Source: Dehalococcoidia bacterium (GTDB lineage Bacteria > Chloroflexota > Dehalococcoidia > Lucifugimonadales > UBA3495). From it: a DNA stretch of 37,257 nt. The stretch spans positions 1 to 37,257 of the forward strand of contig JAGWBI010000014.1 of the NCBI GenBank assembly GCA_021295965.1, given 5' to 3'. The position numbers and the translations under genes were made by a program. This document shows positions 1 to 33,075 of this stretch, one piece after another. Numbering within the stretch: position 1 is the stretch's first letter; each line of letters starts with the position of its first letter. Below the pieces are notes generated by a model. That model did no database searches, was not told where the DNA came from, and saw only the letters and a program-made list of their open reading frames with translations.

Positions 1-751
1 CCTGGGGGTCTATCACCCAAATCCCTCCGGAGCCGGTGCAAAACACTCTGCCTTCGGTATCCACTTTCATGCCGTCCGGCACCCCGGGCTCGGCCGATGA
101 CATATCGCAGAAAATACGGTTGTTGCTCAGCGTACCGTCGGCGGCGACATCGAAGGCCCTGATGAAACGATGGGTACACACGTCACCGCGCTCCGCCTCC
201 TCGACACAGCGTTCGTCGAGGCGGCTGATGGCGACATAGAGCACCGATTCGTCCGGGGATAGCGCCAGGCCGTTGGGATATTCGCACTGATCGGTAGCCA
301 CGTGCAACGAGTCGTCCGGAGCAATCCGAAAAACGCCGGCGAAACCGAGTTCCCGCTGTTCTACAGGGATGCCGCGTTCCGGGTCGGTGAAATAGACGCT
401 CCCATCGGACCGGCAGATTATGTCGTTGGGACGGTTGAGTCGCCTCCCTTCCCACCGGTCCGCCACCGTCGTTACCGCTCCATCCGCATCCATCCGCGTG
501 ACCTGCCGGTTCGCGCCTTCGCACATCAGCAGCCGGCCCTGGCGATCGAGGGTGCAGCCGTTGCCTTCCCCGGTATTGGTGCGAATCGCGACGGGATCGC
601 CGCTGCCGTCCCAACGCATCAACATGCTTTCCCGGTGGCGGACGTAGGTCAGATAGTTGCCGGGATGCCACAGCGGCCCCTCGGTGGGCCCGCCAGCGGC
701 GATCAGGACGGGATCGCCCGGCTCAACGATTGCAGAAAGGTCTTCAGGCAT
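1..751 (-). CDS. SMP-30/gluconolactonase family protein, 3' end outside window
   Basis: Reading the minus strand from an ATG at 751 gives 250 codons without a stop up to the window edge, so the C-terminus is missing. The frame is a six-bladed beta-propeller of the SMP-30/gluconolactonase/LRE family: TEGPLWHP near residue 23, then RPNDIICRSDG, YPNGLALSPDE and GVPDGMKVDTEG. In this family the early Glu, the Asn of PNG and the Asp of DGMK-type motifs bind one divalent metal that opens lactone or ester rings. The protein at 24494-25399 is a clear paralogue with nearly the same motifs in the same order. The start overlaps the stop of the upstream deiodinase-like gene by 8 bp (744-751), so the two are probably translationally coupled. 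The substrate is unknown; sugar lactonase activity is only a family guess. Confidence 0.88.
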   Translation of the reverse strand, partial: MPEDLSAIVEPGDPVLIAAGGPTEGPLWHPGNYLTYVRHRESMLMRWDGSGDPVAIRTNTGEGNGCTLDRQGRLLMCEGANRQVTRMDADGAVTTVADRWEGRRLNRPNDIICRSDGSVYFTDPERGIPVEQRELGFAGVFRIAPDDSLHVATDQCEYPNGLALSPDESVLYVAISRLDERCVEEAERGDVCTHRFIRAFDVAADGTLSNNRIFCDMSSAEPGVPDGMKVDTEGRVFCTGSGGIWVIDPQ

Positions 752-1526
752 GGTTACTCACTCCGGGGGTTGTCGCCGAAAACGTGGCCAGGATGCAGGT
801 TTCGATGGCCTGCTCCCATTCATCCAGGTCGAAGAAGTGGGGCCCGGCGCCGCCGTGGTAGGCTACGCGGCCGTCAACATCCACCAGGTACAGGCGTTCC
901 GGCGCAGCGCCGTAAGCCTCGTCCACTGCATTGTCCATATCCTCGATAATCACGGGCAGGCCAATTTGAAGGTCTATGCTGCACGATTGCGCCACCGCCT
1001 CGCGCTCCGCGGAGCTCCGATGTTGACGGAACAGAACGCCTTCCTGGACGTTGCTTTCCACCTGCCATCCGTCGGTGGGGTGGGCTTCCTGGACATACAC
1101 CACGAAGAATTCCACATCGTCCCTGAAACGGCGGTAAATCCGGGTCATGCGCTCAGTCTGAGCGCGGAACGGAGGTCAAGTGTAGCTGCCGAAAGCCAAC
1201 GCCACCGGCCGCCGGCCGCGATAATCGGACAGCCGCACTCGGTCCTCCGAACCCAAACGCTTGAGGCAGAAGTCGGGGGCTCCGGCGCCAACTTGAGGGC
1301 CGGTTTCATCTCGCAAAAGGATGGCGTCGAGGGCGGCGCGAACTTCCGCGGGCAACTCGCCCTGCCAATCATCAACCAACTCGCGCGCCGTGATCCTTCC
1401 GCCGTTGGTAGCTACATCCGGACTTCCGCCCCTGGCCTCCTTGATCGCAGCGACGACTCTCCGGAGATCCTGCCGGTCGGCATCGCTCAATCCGCTGATA
1501 ATGCTGTCGCGCTGCGCCTTCAACAT
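744..1526 (-). CDS. Iodothyronine-deiodinase-like selenoprotein (in-frame TGA = Sec)
   Basis: A conventional gene caller would split this into two ORFs (1176-1526 and 744-1148), but both lie in one frame separated only by a TGA at 1176-1178. Read through, the protein is 260 residues. Around the TGA it reads AFGSYT-U-PPFRAQTER, matching the deiodinase active site GSCTUPxF, with U at residue 117. Further family motifs follow in order: YVQEAHPTDGW, QHRSSAER, AYGAAPERLYLVD and YHGGAGP. The fold is thioredoxin-like (T4_deiodinase). In animals the Sec removes iodine from thyroid hormone; bacterial homologues have no settled substrate, but a selenol redox or dehalogenation role is plausible. About 75 N-terminal residues precede the domain, with no membrane anchor, unlike vertebrate enzymes. 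A GGAGGG lies 4 nt before the ATG. A hairpin suited to Sec insertion follows the TGA. Sec-decoding genes are not in this window. Confidence 0.85.
1149..1165 (-). promoter_or_regulatory. Putative bacterial SECIS hairpin after the UGA
   Basis: On the minus strand the sequence from 1165 down to 1149 is GCGCTC-AGACT-GAGCGC, a perfect 6-bp stem with a 5-nt loop (or 7 bp with a 3-nt loop). The stem starts 10 nt and the 5-nt loop 16 nt after the TGA at 1176-1178, and the second loop base is G. This agrees with the known layout of bacterial SECIS elements, which sit in the coding region just downstream of the UGA and bind SelB through a small G-containing loop. The hairpin encodes residues that are not strongly conserved in the family, which leaves room for an RNA constraint. 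Folding and function are inferred. Confidence 0.6.
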
Positions 1527-1691
1527 GGTTCCCTCCGCTGTCTCAAACGCTATGTGGCTTGATTTCCACTGTTGGCGTCAAGATAACATTTGGTCATAGC
1601 GCAGTCCATCGGTCGCCCCGCTTTCCCAGTACGGATCCGAGTAAACGCATTTCACATCTTGCCAAAAACTGGTCGCGCCATTAGCCTCTAT

Positions 1692-3733: not shown

Positions 3734-3834
3734 CCGTCATTCCCGCTTTCGCGGGAATCCAGAGAGGGTACAAACAAGCCGATTTTCTTAAGGCAACGAT
3801 TTTCTGGGTTCCTGCATTCGCAGGGACGACGGTG
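3734..3834. repeat. Composite inverted-repeat element (CGTCATTCCCGC family)
   Basis: The left end (3734-3763) is itself a hairpin, CCGTCATTCCCGC facing GCGGGAATCCAGA. The right end (3801-3834) is a degenerate inverted copy ending GGGACGACGGTG. A related element lies at 27664-27762 and a decayed copy at 16807-16900. It fills the gap between the convergent stops at 3719 and 3859, where its hairpins could act as a bidirectional terminator. Similar ATTCCCGC/GCGGGAAT repeats are widespread in bacterial intergenic DNA. Confidence 0.75.
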
Positions 3835-3858
3835 TGATTTTGTAAACGTCAACATAGC

Positions 3859-21716: not shown

Positions 21717-22769
21717 ATGAAGTTTGCCCTGTTTTTGTTGGGCTCCTGGACGGAGCCGGAAACCAGCGCCCAAAGCCGGATCTTTGGCGAGATGCTGGAA
21801 CAGATCGAATACGCGGAAGAGTTGGGGTTCGATTCAATCTGGATTGCGGAGCACCACTCCAGCCGCTACGGGATATGTCCCTCGCTGATGCCGCTACTGA
21901 CCCACATCGCCGCCCGCACCAAAAAGATTCGCATCGGGGCCGGCGTCAGCGTCCTGCCCTTCTACAACCCCATTTTCCTGGCTGAAGAAAGCGCCATGCT
22001 GGACGTGCTCAGCAACGGCCGGCTGGATTTCGGGGTTGGCCGTGGCTCGGCTGATTACGAGTATGGCAACTTCAACATCGATATGGACACGCGCGACGTT
22101 CGCACCCAGGAGGTGTTGGACATCATTCTGGGGCTGTGGACGCAGTCGGATTTCTCCTATCAGGGCGAGTTCTACCAGGTGAAAGACCTGACCATTGCTC
22201 CCTCGCCCGTGCAAAAGCCCCATCCGCCGGTGTACATGGCGGTGTCGCGCACGCCGGCCAGCGTGGACGTCGCAGTGTCGCGAGACCTGCCCATCCTGAC
22301 CAGCTTTTCGACGCCGGAGGCGGACAACCTGGGACTGTTTTCGCTATACGCGGAACGCTGCGCCGCGGCCGGAAAGGATCTGCCCGTGGGCGAGATGCCC
22401 TACTTCCGATACGTGCATCTGGATGAGGACGAGCACACGGCTCAGGAATACCCCCGTGAGTCCATCAGGTGGGTGCGCGACCTGGCCACCTACCGGCGCA
22501 CGCTGACCCGCGGCGACGAGATCAACGTGGACCTGGACCACTGGCGGACGATTCGCACCACCGAGCCGCCCAGCTACGAGTCGGAACTGGAGGGCACCGT
22601 GTACTTCGGCACACCGGACGATTGCGTGCGGAGAATAGAGAAATTGCGGGACGGACACGGCATCGAGTACTTTGGCGCGTGCATGTCCTTCGGCAGCATG
22701 GAACACGCCAGGGTAATGCGCTCCATGGAGCTTTTCGCCAGGGAAGTGATGCCCAAGTTCCGGGAGTAA
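21717..22769 (+). CDS. LLM-class flavin-dependent oxidoreductase (luciferase-like), copy 2
   Basis: The 350-residue TIM-barrel protein begins MKFALFLLGSW and shows LGFDSIWIAEHHSSRYG near residue 38-54, IRIGAGVSVLPFYNPIFLAEESAMLDVLSNGR near 72-103 and DFGVGRGS near 105. QKPHPPVYMAVSRTPAS near 163 and FGTPDDCVRRIEKL near 300 are typical for the luciferase-like family. The EHHSSRYG form is closer to bacterial-luciferase alpha-type members than the copy at 12640. It should bind reduced FMN and oxygenate a small molecule. AAAGGAGG lies upstream of the ATG. It is the second gene of a two-gene unit with the SDR; a gap of about 300 nt follows. Confidence 0.92.
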   Translation: MKFALFLLGSWTEPETSAQSRIFGEMLEQIEYAEELGFDSIWIAEHHSSRYGICPSLMPLLTHIAARTKKIRIGAGVSVLPFYNPIFLAEESAMLDVLSNGRLDFGVGRGSADYEYGNFNIDMDTRDVRTQEVLDIILGLWTQSDFSYQGEFYQVKDLTIAPSPVQKPHPPVYMAVSRTPASVDVAVSRDLPILTSFSTPEADNLGLFSLYAERCAAAGKDLPVGEMPYFRYVHLDEDEHTAQEYPRESIRWVRDLATYRRTLTRGDEINVDLDHWRTIRTTEPPSYESELEGTVYFGTPDDCVRRIEKLRDGHGIEYFGACMSFGSMEHARVMRSMELFAREVMPKFRE

Positions 22770-23075: not shown

Positions 23076-24239
23076 ATGAGGAACTGCCAAACTATACGGA
23101 AACAACGCGCCTCTATTGCCATGATGTGGCTCGGCATCGCGGCCGCGATTCTGATCGTTCTGCTCGGAGCGGCGGCAACATCGCGGACGGCCTCGGCAAA
23201 CACTCTTGACCGAACTGACCTGGAAATCGTGTATTGCAACGGCGATGGGGTCGCCATGTCCTGGCGCACCGAGAACGATGGGCGGGCCGCAGCGCCCGAC
23301 GGCTGGAAGGTGGAGCGAAGCCATCAGGATTCAGAAGGAAACCCGGTGGTACAGACCTTCACGTTCATCGGCGATGAAGCCGACGCCTTGCATACGTCCA
23401 ACCAGGAATACTGGGACTGGGTGGACAAGAGCGTTGATCGGAACGTTCCATACATCTACCGCATCAGGGCCATCAACGCGGACGGATCCGACATGGACGG
23501 GAGAGCCTGGTCGCGGAATGCTCCCGCTGAATGTACTGCGGACCCCATCGATGAACCCGGCATATCCGTGCCCGCGTGCCAGGACATCGGGGTATCGATG
23601 TTTTGGCATACCAAGAACACCGGTCAGGCCGCAGCGCCCGACGGCTGGAAGGTGGAGCGAAGCCACCAGGATTCAGAAGGAACCTGGGTGGTCCAGATCT
23701 TCACCTTCATCGGCGCGGACTCCGACGCTCTCCACACCATCGATAATGAACACTGGGACTGGGTGGACACCAGCGCTTACCGGTACGTGGACTACAACTA
23801 CCGCGTCAGGGCCATCAACGCCGACGGATCAGACCTGGTCGGCAGAACCTGGTCAAGGTATGCCGCAGCCATCTGCAGGGGAGGGAGCCTCCATCAGCCT
23901 GGCATATCGGTGCCGCGGTTGACGGAAAAGGGCGTCTCGATGTTCTGGCATACCAGGAACCGGGGCCAGGCCGAACCTCCGGACGGATGGAAGGTCGAGC
24001 GCAGGCACTGGGATTCCGGAGGCTGGGTAGTTCGGACCTTCACGTTCATAGGCGCCGATGCCGACGCTCTCCAAACCCACAGCGAACTGTACTGGGACTG
24101 GGTGGACGAAGAGGCCGGTTTCGACGAGGACTACACCTACCGCGTCAGGGCCATCAACGCCGACGGGACGGACATGGACGGCAGAACCTGGTCGCGGCGC
24201 GCTCCCGTGGAGGGTTGCCCGTGTGACGATAAGCGGTGA
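23076..24239 (+). CDS. Secreted protein with three fibronectin-III-like repeats
   Basis: The 387-residue product has a basic start, a hydrophobic helix (MMWLGIAAAILIVLLGAAA, residues 16-34) and an ASA-N signal peptidase site near residue 41, so export is likely. The rest is three repeats of about 105-114 residues. Each has a first Cys or hydrophobic strand, a variable MSWRT or MFWHT, DGWKVER, a strand with TFTFIG, YWDWVD or HWDWVD, then YRVRAINADG and a final GRxWSR. The pattern of W, Y and RVRAINADG is that of fibronectin type III domains. Cys pairs at the repeat starts and ends suggest disulfides. There is no sortase, S-layer or membrane anchor, and no enzyme domain. Repeats 1 and 2 are nearly identical in DNA over 55 bp, so they duplicated recently. 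Probably a binding or adhesion protein. Confidence 0.85.
   Translation: MRNCQTIRKQRASIAMMWLGIAAAILIVLLGAAATSRTASANTLDRTDLEIVYCNGDGVAMSWRTENDGRAAAPDGWKVERSHQDSEGNPVVQTFTFIGDEADALHTSNQEYWDWVDKSVDRNVPYIYRIRAINADGSDMDGRAWSRNAPAECTADPIDEPGISVPACQDIGVSMFWHTKNTGQAAAPDGWKVERSHQDSEGTWVVQIFTFIGADSDALHTIDNEHWDWVDTSAYRYVDYNYRVRAINADGSDLVGRTWSRYAAAICRGGSLHQPGISVPRLTEKGVSMFWHTRNRGQAEPPDGWKVERRHWDSGGWVVRTFTFIGADADALQTHSELYWDWVDEEAGFDEDYTYRVRAINADGTDMDGRTWSRRAPVEGCPCDDKR
23286..23682 (+). repeat. Tandem coding repeat, two near-identical 55-bp segments
   Basis: Positions 23286-23340 and 23628-23682 differ at one base (T versus C) and are 342 nt (114 codons) apart. They encode the same part of repeats 1 and 2 of the secreted protein. 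The corresponding segment of repeat 3 is more diverged. This suggests recent duplication or gene conversion. Confidence 0.8.
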
Positions 24240-24271
24240 GGAGCGTTACGAAAAACTCGAGGCGATTGCCA

Positions 24272-24302
24272 GCCACCCGGAGGATATGTCCAACCGGGTG
24301 GC
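24272..24302 (+). terminator. GC-rich hairpin after the secreted repeat protein
   Basis: GCCACCCGG (24272-24280) pairs perfectly with CCGGGTGGC (24294-24302) around a 13-nt loop, followed by CGTACATTTTA. The weak T-tract makes it a moderate terminator candidate; it lies 33 nt after the stop at 24239 and before the next promoter. Confidence 0.45.
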
Positions 24303-24333
24303 CGTACATTTTACGGGCCATGGCCGGTTGGCG

Positions 24334-24342
24334 TGATATAGT
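24334..24342 (+). promoter_or_regulatory. Extended -10 promoter candidate for the SMP-30/PuuE unit
   Basis: TGATATAGT is the extended -10 form TG-n-TATAGT. No strong -35 is present, as is usual for this class. It would give a leader of about 145 nt before the ATG at 24494. Confidence 0.35.
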
Positions 24343-24493
24343 CAGCAACAAACCGGCGCCGGAGAATTGCCAATATCACAATCGCGCTGGCCGCAGCGAG
24401 ACGCATCAGTCAAACCGCGCGCAACCACGCGAGGGCCCGCCGGTAAATCAGAGAAGCGACACCGTTCAGACCAACCCACGGCAGGAGGGAGCC

Positions 24494-25399
24494 ATGGCAG
24501 ACAATCTGGATCACATCGTAGAATCCCATGAGGCGGAACGCCTCGCCACCGGTTTCTCGTTCACCGAAGGACCCCTGTGGCACCCGGACGGCTACCTGCT
24601 GTTCGTGAACAACCGCATCCACGTCATCTACAAGCTCGTGCCCGGCGGCGAGCCCGAGGTGGTGCGGGAAAACAGCGGGGGCGCCAACGGCCTGACCTTC
24701 GATCTCCAGGGCCGGATCATCATGTGCGACGGTGACGACCGACAGATGACCCGTTGGGAACATGACGGCTCCATCACCGTCATCGCCGACCGCTGGGATG
24801 GCAAGCGTCTGCACCGGCCCAACGACGTGGTCTGCCGCTCCGACGGCAGCATTTATTTTACCAACCCCGGCCTGCGCCTGCCGCCGGAGGAGCGTGAGAT
24901 CGACTTCCACGGTATTCACCGCATCGCTCCGGACGGGACGGTGTCTGCCGTGATCACCGACCTGGAGTCCCCCAACGGCCTGGCCTTCTCCCCCGACGAG
25001 ACGATTCTGTACGCCGACAACACCCGCCGCGGCGACGAATGCGCCGCCGAGAAGGAACGGGGTGAGGTCTGCACCCACCAGTACATCAGGGCCTATGACG
25101 TGGCTCCCGACGGCTCGGTGAGCAACAGTCGCCTGTTCGCCGAAATGCACTCGGCGGAGGACGGCGTTCCCGATGGCATGAAGGTGGACACCGACGGCCG
25201 GATTTATTGCACCGGCGCGGAGGGGGTCTGGGTCTTCGAGCCGGACGGCGCCCTGCTGGGAATAATCCGGCTGCCCGAGATCCCGGCCAACTGCGCCTGG
25301 GGCGACGACGATTACCGCACCATGTATTTCACTGCCCGCAGCTCGGTGTACCGCATGAGGATGAAGACCACCGGCATCAATCCGTGGCGCGGCGGCTGA
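24494..25399 (+). CDS. SMP-30/gluconolactonase family protein (complete)
   Basis: The ATG at 24494 follows CAGGAGGGAGCC; the frame extends upstream but without a site. The 301-residue six-bladed propeller has the expected metal-binding positions: E25 in FTEGPLWHP, N in SPNGLAFSPDE (about 164) and D in PDGMKVDTDG (about 215), besides RPNDVVCRSDG (about 110). The reaction for well-studied members is hydrolysis of sugar lactones or organophosphate-type esters. It shares nearly all these blocks with the truncated protein at 1-751, including ERGxVCTH and SAExGVPDGMKVDT, so the two are close paralogues. PuuE-like deacetylase follows after 22 nt in the same unit, suggesting a role in one ureide- or lactone-degrading route, which is inference. 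Confidence 0.92.
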   Translation: MADNLDHIVESHEAERLATGFSFTEGPLWHPDGYLLFVNNRIHVIYKLVPGGEPEVVRENSGGANGLTFDLQGRIIMCDGDDRQMTRWEHDGSITVIADRWDGKRLHRPNDVVCRSDGSIYFTNPGLRLPPEEREIDFHGIHRIAPDGTVSAVITDLESPNGLAFSPDETILYADNTRRGDECAAEKERGEVCTHQYIRAYDVAPDGSVSNSRLFAEMHSAEDGVPDGMKVDTDGRIYCTGAEGVWVFEPDGALLGIIRLPEIPANCAWGDDDYRTMYFTARSSVYRMRMKTTGINPWRGG

Positions 25400-31664: not shown

Positions 31665-32042
31665 ATGCCTTTGCAGTTGGACCACACAATCGTACCCGCC
31701 TACGACAAGGTGAAGTCTGCGGAATTCATCGCCCGCCTCTTTGGACTGAAGTACGAAGGGCCGTGGGGCCACTTCGCTCCCGTCAAGGTCAACGACATTC
31801 TGACGCTGGACTTCGACGACTCGGACAATCCGCGATCCAATCACTACGCCTTCCTGGCTTCGGACGAAGAGTTCGACGCGATCCTGCAACGCATCAAGGA
31901 TGAGGGTGTCATATTCGGCAGCGGACCGCGCTCCCGGACGGATGGGCAGATCAACCACCTTCACCAGGGTCGCGGGTTCTATTTCGAGTGTGAAAACGGA
32001 CACGTCTGGGAGGTCATCACCCACACCTACATCACCGATTAG
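31665..32042 (+). CDS. VOC-family (glyoxalase/dioxygenase-like) protein
   Basis: The 125-residue single-module protein begins MPLQLDHTIVPAYD, with H7 at the usual first metal position, and ends GRGFYFECENGHVWEVITHTY, where a Glu (in FECENGH or WEV) takes the second ligand position. One module of beta-alpha-beta-beta-beta pairs is present in each half, typical of vicinal-oxygen-chelate proteins such as glyoxalase, fosfomycin-resistance or extradiol-dioxygenase-like enzymes; the function cannot be told apart. CGAGGAGGATCATC precedes the ATG. The luciferase-like gene begins 31 nt after its stop, so the two are likely cotranscribed; a metal isomerase or dioxygenase next to a flavin monooxygenase would suit degradation of a small aromatic or carbonyl compound. 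Confidence 0.88.
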   Translation: MPLQLDHTIVPAYDKVKSAEFIARLFGLKYEGPWGHFAPVKVNDILTLDFDDSDNPRSNHYAFLASDEEFDAILQRIKDEGVIFGSGPRSRTDGQINHLHQGRGFYFECENGHVWEVITHTYITD

Positions 32043-32073
32043 GGCGCGTCGCCGTAAATCGAGTTGGAGAGCC

Positions 32074-33075
32074 ATGGAAGTAGGACTTTACATACGGGAC
32101 TACATGGACGACCCGGACCGACCCATGTACCAGCAGGTGGAAGAAGCCGCCGAGGTATGCCGGCGCGCCGAATCGCTGGGGTTTTCGGTCATCTACATGC
32201 CCCAACATTACATAGCCCATCCCACGGTCTGGATGCAGCCCATGCAGACTCTGGCCCGGCTGGCGCCCGATGCCGAGGGCTTGCAGCTTCTGACGGGCAT
32301 CCTGTTGCTCCCGTACCACAACCCGGTGGACATGGCTGAGCAAGCGGTCACGCTGGACCACATCAGCAACGGGCGGTTCGTTCTCGGGGTGGGATTGGGC
32401 TACCGGGTGGCGGAGCTTGCGGCGTTCGGAACCAATCGGAGAGACCGGGTGAGCCGGTTCGAAGAGTCGATTGAGCTGATGAAGCTGCTGTGGAGTGGAG
32501 AGGAGGTGAATTTCGATGGACAGCACTGGCAGGTGCATGACGCCCGGTTGGCCCTGACACCCGCGCAGAAGCCGCATCCCCCGATCTGGATTGCGGCCCA
32601 GAGTCGGGGCGCGGTCCGCCGGGCTACAGCGTTGGGCGACCGGGTGATCCTCGGCCCGCAACCGGGATGGAAGGACATCGCCGTCCTGACCCGGCAGTAC
32701 AAGGAAGCCCTCGACGAACTGGGTAAGGACCCTGCCGGTCGCATCGGCGCCCACCGCTCCATCGCCATAGCCCAAGACCGTGAAACGGCATTTTCCGAGG
32801 CGCGCGAAATGGCCGCCAAAAAAGCCGGAATGTACGGCGCTTTCAACATGCAGGAACGCACCACCGTTGATTTCGGACTGGGAGGGCAGCGTGAATTGCA
32901 AGACTGGGCAGTGGCCGGCAGCCCCCAGGACTGCGCTGAAATCATCAACCGCTGCCAAGAAGAGGACGGCCTGGACTATGTTGGGCTGGCCAGCCTGAAT
33001 TTGCCCAGCGAGTTTTCCGCCAGGCTGGACTACCTACAGCTCATTTCCGAAGAACTGCTCCCGCATTTGCAATGA
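32074..33075 (+). CDS. LLM-class flavin-dependent oxidoreductase (luciferase-like), copy 3
   Basis: The ATG at 32074 follows GGAGAGCC; the frame is open upstream to 31900 within the VOC gene, which I reject. The 333-residue TIM-barrel protein shows LGFSVIYMPQHY near 35-46, LLTGILLLPYHNPVDMAEQAVTLDHISNGR near 72-101, FVLGVGLGYR near 102-111 and QKPHPPIWIAAQSRGAVRRA near 162-181. The layout matches luciferase-like/F420- or FMN-dependent oxidoreductases, and differs from the other two in the window. It is probably in one operon with the VOC gene. Function beyond flavin-dependent oxidation is not readable. Confidence 0.9.
   Translation: MEVGLYIRDYMDDPDRPMYQQVEEAAEVCRRAESLGFSVIYMPQHYIAHPTVWMQPMQTLARLAPDAEGLQLLTGILLLPYHNPVDMAEQAVTLDHISNGRFVLGVGLGYRVAELAAFGTNRRDRVSRFEESIELMKLLWSGEEVNFDGQHWQVHDARLALTPAQKPHPPIWIAAQSRGAVRRATALGDRVILGPQPGWKDIAVLTRQYKEALDELGKDPAGRIGAHRSIAIAQDRETAFSEAREMAAKKAGMYGAFNMQERTTVDFGLGGQRELQDWAVAGSPQDCAEIINRCQEEDGLDYVGLASLNLPSEFSARLDYLQLISEELLPHLQ

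Follow-up and report, generated by a model that had tools for sequence, protein, structure and literature searches.

A predicted selenoprotein of the deiodinase family in SAR202-type Chloroflexota

Two short reading frames form one selenoprotein gene

The window analysed here is a stretch of 37,257 nucleotides, contig 72 of a 3.23-Mb assembly in 86 contigs (86.6% complete, 5.9% contaminated). Near its start, two open reading frames of the minus strand lie in the same frame (1176-1526, 116 amino acids, and 744-1148, 134 amino acids), separated by a single TGA and nine codons. An initial annotation, made from the letters alone, had proposed that these are the halves of one selenoprotein gene, and the arrangement it described is indeed present. 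With the TGA read as selenocysteine (Sec, U), the joined product is 260 amino acids long and runs from MLKAQ through GSYT-U-PPF to NHA and a stop codon (Table 1). On the sequence evidence set out below, the two ORFs are one real, intact selenoprotein gene of the deiodinase family.

Table 1. Features of the selenoprotein locus (positions in the window)
Feature	Positions	Strand	Remarks
Deiodinase-like selenoprotein gene	744..1526	-	260 aa with UGA as Sec117; stop TGA 746-744
In-frame UGA (Sec117)	1176..1178	-	
Shine-Dalgarno-like GGAGGG	1531..1536	-	5′ of the ATG at 1526; read by eye
Putative bacterial SECIS, 7-bp stem and 3-nt loop	1149..1165	-	begins 10 nt after the UGA
Dio-type omega-loop EAHPTDGW...QHRS	1014..1088	-	codons 147-171; from alignment to Dio3
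Cys182 codon, helix alpha-D	981..983	-	proposed resolving thiol
SMP-30/gluconolactonase-type gene	2..751	-	8-bp overlap with the selenoprotein gene; runs off the window

An antisense frame of 301 amino acids (657-1562, plus strand) spans the whole selenoprotein gene and is probably spurious; since it is longer than either half of the selenoprotein, a gene caller could choose it instead. Antisense frames of the same group lie over the selenoprotein gene at 12 of 17 loci, the window included.

The joined protein scored 121.4 bits against the Pfam family T4_deiodinase (PF00837; cut-off 27), confirming the family assignment made at the outset. The second half alone reached 80.2 bits against this profile, the first half alone gave a weak AhpC-TSA match under cut-off (16.4 bits), and a six-frame search of the host's own genome with T4_deiodinase gave 115 bits. 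The joined protein was also over cut-off for AhpC-TSA (39.4 bits; cut-off 26) and Redoxin (27.1 bits; cut-off 26.6). Its best NCBIfam match was NF038285 (deiodinase family protein), over residues 74-242, with a score of 202.2 bits that is under the cut-off of 250 and leaves the first 172 profile positions unmatched. The best solved relatives by sequence were mouse Dio3 (E 3e-27) and Dio2 (E 7e-22). The same two enzymes were the nearest solved folds to the AlphaFold model (pLDDT 90.4, pTM 0.87): Dio3 (4tr3, E 7e-13) and Dio2 (9h48, E 2e-12) were followed by ResA (E 1e-9) and, lower, AhpE. Deiodinases proper have a transmembrane region (PMC11592359); a hydrophobic N-terminal anchor was not seen in residues 1-80 of the protein studied here, where the highest 19-residue Kyte-Doolittle mean is 0.33.

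All 17 loci from the genome_contigs scan, which reaches close relatives only, are titled Chloroflexi, Chloroflexota, Dehalococcoidia or SAR202 cluster, and the relatives bin87 and bin22 are listed as SAR202 bins in work on the sponge Aplysina aerophoba (PMC5649159). Its relatives thus point to a SAR202-type member of the Chloroflexota as the host. Beyond the host's own family, the long form of the protein, bearing the omega-loop, occurs in 17 of the 294 genomes sampled from the class, the host's own included. In a sample of the phylum, 13 of 400 genomes were over the PF00837 cut-off; the own genome and those of L118, L119, L120 and L122 encode a loop-bearing form with DGW, and that of L121 one with DAW. 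A plasmid search returned one weak match, from Mycolicibacterium, annotated as deiodinase-like.

The UGA codon is conserved and followed by sequence under selection

As had been proposed, the TGA falls at the catalytic Sec position: U117 aligns to the Sec of mouse Dio3 (4tr3). When the search pattern allowed any residue at this site, TGA was found in 16/16 genome_contigs loci spanning it; the seventeenth, L031, is partial and stands outside this count. In the host's own GTDB family, 39 of 50 genomes have a match of any length and 30 a long one, and all 30 long matches carry TGA at the site (among them, G298 has an extra TAG and G297 is cut off). The two sets overlap and amount to 31 distinct sequences, 31 of 31 with TGA; no other stop or frameshift was seen at the site in these family sequences. 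The residue is likewise U in 20/20 further loop-bearing rows of the alignment and in L121, while the 18 loopless rows have U in 13 cases, C in three, and S and T in one each. The initial expectation that homologues would have U or C, and nothing else, at this position is borne out by all loop-bearing relatives examined, every one of which has U, and fails for three distant loopless ones, which have S (L125), T (L066) and G (L127). One relative, L050 (G143), contains two in-frame TGAs, the second directly after DGW, and may encode two Sec residues or be a damaged copy.

In comparisons with nine relatives, dN/dS was 0.06-0.15 over the 124 codons after the TGA; over 47 codons before it, the ratio was 0.05-0.26. 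The part downstream of the TGA is under purifying selection. We also considered UGA as a reassigned sense codon and rejected this, as both the selenoprotein gene and the adjoining ABC gene terminate in TGA.

A SECIS-like stem and the Sec-decoding genes

Published descriptions of bacterial SECIS elements give a stem-loop 3′ of the UGA whose small apical loop contains a G (PMC1088965), and a structure with these properties begins shortly downstream of the UGA here. Its apical loop reads GGU in 16 of the 31 sequences, GUC in seven, GGC in six, AGU in one and GAC in one, the window. Across the stem, 89.4% of 217 cells are paired, versus 17-55% when the pairing is slid by 1 to 3 columns. Two-sided changes were found in 9 cells, against a shuffled mean of 2.7 (0/500 shuffles as high), and affect 3 stem pairs, against a shuffled mean of 1.7 (32/500 as high). 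Compensation is clear for CGU...CAC (L089 and L091-L093) and for UCU...AGC (L086): in each, a substitution in one codon has its counterpart in another. None of 400 synonymous recodings of the window reached the 7 pairs of its stem or its energy; over the 31 sequences, the energy relative to such recodings had a mean z of -1.5 (28/31 below 0, 20/31 below -1), and a 48-nt segment of the window had a z of -2.79 relative to dinucleotide shuffles. RNAalifold, run on 17 sequences, returned only 5 pairs, one with a two-sided change, and a covariation term of +0.12, hence no net bonus from covariation. The minimum-energy fold differs in some relatives (e.g. L015, L016, L096), and Rfam gave no match. 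The sequences of the SECIS alignment (A3) were picked by a pattern demanding TGA, so it gives no evidence for the TGA itself. Taken as sequence, a SECIS-like stem with compensating changes clearly follows the UGA, and we refer to it as a putative SECIS.

The initial annotation had made its reading depend on Sec-decoding genes, and all four are present in the own genome, each over cut-off: selA (546.5 bits), selB (356.3 bits), selC, the tRNA-Sec (69 bits), and selD (378.8 bits). The selD gene (C8:23659-24582, L032) has an in-frame TGA and probably encodes a selenoprotein itself. Within the family, selB was over cut-off in 44 of 50 genomes, comprising 24 of the 30 that have a long match to the selenoprotein and all 20 that lack one, and is therefore uninformative on the presence of the deiodinase-like gene; the six genomes in which it was not over cut-off (G316, G317, G320, G330, G333, G334) are 56-85% complete. 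The best thioredoxin reductase candidate scored 322 bits, below the cut-off of 343.

Ordinary gene finding splits the gene, as would be expected of a pseudogene, of a sequencing error, or of two proteins separated by a normal stop. Against such an origin stand the presence of this TGA in all 31 distinct sequences of the family, the low dN/dS after it, and the company of a SECIS-like stem and sel genes, and we find it scarcely credible.

The active site resembles that of animal deiodinases

The deiodinase motifs pointed out initially downstream of the TGA are conserved. The omega-loop motif AHxxDGW is common to the Dios (PMC7506546); it reads AHPTDGW in the window, and its Trp is found in 25 of 30 complete family sequences, the other five having Arg. 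For a residue-by-residue comparison, positions of Dio3 and Dio2 named in two publications (PMC7506546, PMC11592359) were placed by sequence alignment. The window keeps Dio3 S167, T169, Sec170, Y197, E200, H202, W207, Q218, H219 and R225, and the pocket residues E259, R260, G276 and P277. Seven of these (S167, T169, Y197, E200, H202, H219, R225) are kept in 30/30 complete family sequences, W207 in 25/30 and E259 in 28/30. The protein thus shares with the mouse Dio3 and Dio2 cores (4tr3, 9h48) the thioredoxin fold, the G-S-x-T-U-PPF motif, the AHxxDGW loop and the relay of Ser, Thr, Tyr, Glu, His and His.

Other positions differ. Relative to Dio3, the window has C168 replaced by Tyr, R176 by Gln, C239 by Leu, Y257 by Ala, F258 by Pro, R275 by Ala and D278 by His. 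Four of these positions also vary among true deiodinases, however: at C168, R176, Y257 and D278, the residues of Dio2 are Ala, Gln, Ala and Phe, respectively. The proposition that the thyronine pocket has been lost had to be narrowed accordingly: because R176, Y257 and D278 differ in Dio2 too, the only pocket positions that separate the family from both Dios are the Arg/Lys275 clamp, which is Ala in 30/30 sequences, and Phe258, which is Pro in 30/30. The column of Cys239, a Cys in both Dio3 and Dio2, holds Leu, Ile or Val in 30/30. The residue at U-2 is Tyr in the window versus Cys in Dio3 and Ala in Dio2, and where the window has Cys182, in helix alpha-D, both Dios have Leu. The kept relay and loop residues imply a reactive centre and a loop anchor as in deiodinases, with a substrate end of the pocket that is partly different. 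With an animal-type active site mostly kept and some hormone-binding residues changed, the enzyme may perform a related chemistry on another molecule.

Fold, Sec motif, loop and part of the Dio2 pocket residues would also fit a true thyroid-hormone deiodinase. We consider this very improbable: in all 30 sequences the clamp position is Ala and the residue before it is Gly (Gly226) rather than Arg, Dio3 with an Arg275Ala mutation is reported to have low activity (PMC7506546), and thyroid hormone is unexpected in bacteria (PMC1088965).

In a first tree, the loop-bearing (49) and loopless (18) bacterial rows were split with support of 100/100, Dio2 and Dio3 falling on the loop side. When the loop columns and Dio2 were left out, the bacterial split remained (100/99), and neither the placement of Dio3 with the loopless rows (AU p 0.376) nor its placement with the family studied here (AU p 0.358) was rejected.

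Cys182 is a candidate resolving thiol

In the AlphaFold model, Cys182 lies within the helix formed by residues 172-185. We related its occurrence to the residue at U+3 in an alignment whose 91 rows reduce to 75 distinct sequences. We kept 69 of these and dropped six: a partial one (L031), one with Gly at the Sec site (L127), one with U-TVF (L121), and three of low score (L068, L137 and L140). U is combined with F or Y at U+3 in 55 of the 69 kept rows, and 53 of these have Cys182, the other two being L097, which ends before the site, and L067 (UPTY), which has no Cys there. Thus, Cys182 is present in 53/53 UPPF/Y rows that reach the site versus 0/6 UPPC rows, and it is absent from the three other U rows and the five non-U rows. 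L121, outside this count, has an alpha-D Cys with its U-TVF. The UPPC proteins (L058-L061, L063, L064) are deiodinase-like selenoproteins of the same wider family with Sec in the same place, but they have no omega-loop, a Cys at U+3 and no alpha-D Cys. These loopless forms belong to further families within the order and class. G276 contains three such places, and of these the L060 one alone was read.

The peroxidase PtGPX5 has its resolving Cys92 in the equivalent of helix alpha-D, and Cys239 of Dio3 lies beyond that helix (PMC7506546). The pattern suggests that the two bacterial forms could use alternative resolving thiols, the UPPC proteins the Cys at U+3 and the UPPF proteins the Cys in alpha-D. 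As most rows belong to one clade, it represents few independent lineages.

A proposed mechanism and its competitors

We think it probable that the gene encodes a selenoenzyme of the PF00837 family, without a transmembrane anchor, that works in three steps; we name no substrate for it. Firstly, SelB and tRNA-Sec would decode the UGA at 1178-1176 as Sec, guided by the stem-loop just downstream, a step strongly supported by the sequence. Secondly, to go by residue conservation and the published biochemistry of the Dios, the selenolate of Sec117 would attack an electrophilic atom of a small substrate, while Ser114, Thr116, Tyr144, Glu147, His149 and His169 would move protons and anchor the omega-loop. 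Lastly, Cys182 would attack the oxidised selenium to form a Sec117-Cys182 bond, to be reduced by thioredoxin or a similar thiol. For the reaction carried out, dehalogenation is plausible and a peroxidase-like role about as likely.

A peroxidase of the peroxiredoxin or GPx type would have its Sec117 oxidised by a hydroperoxide; Cys182 would then act as the resolving thiol and thioredoxin as the reductant, and the enzyme would not dehalogenate. This possibility, which we place somewhat below an even chance, draws on the AhpC-TSA and Redoxin profiles that the protein passes, on ResA and, lower, AhpE as the structures that come after the Dios, on the matching helix of PtGPX5, which contains that enzyme's resolving Cys92 (PMC7506546), and on the redox function that has been suggested for bacterial deiodinase-like proteins (PMC1088965). 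The score for the deiodinase profile is, however, three times higher, and the Dio relay residues and omega-loop are kept. Moreover, the peroxiredoxin signature is P-x3-T/S-x2-C, and the position of its proline is occupied by Leu110.

In a reductive dehalogenase of natural halogenated aromatics, a type of reaction that the initial annotation had suggested, the selenolate would take the halogen as X+ and a proton would replace it, as for Dio. We regard this, too, as a real possibility that falls short of even. The active site and loop are Dio-like, and the departures from Dio3 at R176, Y257 and D278 are shared by Dio2, a true deiodinase, which at the first two of these positions even has the same Gln and Ala. 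An acidic residue is found at position 157 in 30/30 sequences, near but outside the aligned column of Dio3 Asp211. Two of the relatives are the bins from Aplysina aerophoba, a sponge with brominated compounds; for other relatives, on the other hand, titles or contig names such as DeepMed-Io17 and Casp suggest sources other than sponges. Two further points speak against a dehalogenase: the Arg275 clamp (Lys in Dio2) and Phe258 are Ala and Pro in 30/30, and no conserved catabolic neighbour was found over 43 loci. PF13486, the profile of known reductive dehalogenases, had no match in the own genome, nor in any control genome, and is therefore uninformative here.

A more far-reaching proposal would have an always-Sec, cobalamin-free reductive dehalogenase across the SAR202-type lineage, applying Dio chemistry to natural halogenated aromatics, with the alpha-D Cys in place of the animal resolving Cys, and with animal deiodinases that have their source or sister group in bacteria. 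We consider this combination unlikely.

Relation to known bacterial deiodinase-like selenoproteins

The initial statement that the family is known from animals, with rare bacterial members, is out of date, bacterial deiodinase-like proteins having been reported in 2005 and 2008 (PMC1088965, PMC2398784). The 2005 study described four bacterial deiodinase-like Sec sequences together with Cys forms and suggested a redox function (PMC1088965); a table row of 2008 has 22 Sec and 21 Cys deiodinase-like sequences (PMC2398784). The family motif is given as UxxC in reviews of 2022 and 2026 (PMC9312934, PMC13188914), and the 2008 paper gives it as none (PMC2398784). The Sargasso Sea and GOS sequences of these studies (PMC1088965, PMC2398784) are like the ones examined here in Pfam family, Sec and a bacterial SECIS; they differ in being metagenome reads and in including Cys forms, whereas the present family has UPPF and always Sec. 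The comparison is by their description, and UPPF forms may be among them. According to a 2026 review, the functions of such bacterial selenoproteins, deiodinase-like ones included, are largely uncharacterized. The gene in the window is a further member of this bacterial kind, which is known but uncharacterised. Among the papers listed in the literature searches, which covered a minority of subscription journals and preprints, none dealt with a SAR202 deiodinase.

What is gained are intact genes in genome assemblies, combining an animal-type loop and relay with a SECIS-like stem and a candidate resolving Cys that can be mutated. The gene set allows a direct test of whether bacteria carry out deiodinase chemistry, and if so on which substrate, and it offers a bacterial comparison for the origin of the animal deiodinases.

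Gene neighbourhood

The SMP-30-type hydrolase gene named initially as the partner of the selenoprotein gene does overlap it in the window; as a general partner it fails, since among 43 loci with flanking sequence (several with little or no flank on one side) it adjoins the selenoprotein gene in the window only. The idea of SMP-30 as an operon partner was rejected as a general feature, such a gene being found one gene further off, upstream, in L028 and L030 only. No recurring neighbour was seen over the 43 loci, except among close relatives with shared synteny.

The window contains a second SMP-30/gluconolactonase-type gene (24236-25399, plus strand), 52% identical to the neighbour of the selenoprotein gene. 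It also carries two genes for luciferase-like monooxygenases (21717-22769 and 31900-33075, plus strand), as well as amidohydrolase, amidase and FAD-oxidoreductase genes. The intergenic region at 3738-3835 contains, as read by eye, inverted-repeat sequence and a diverged second copy.
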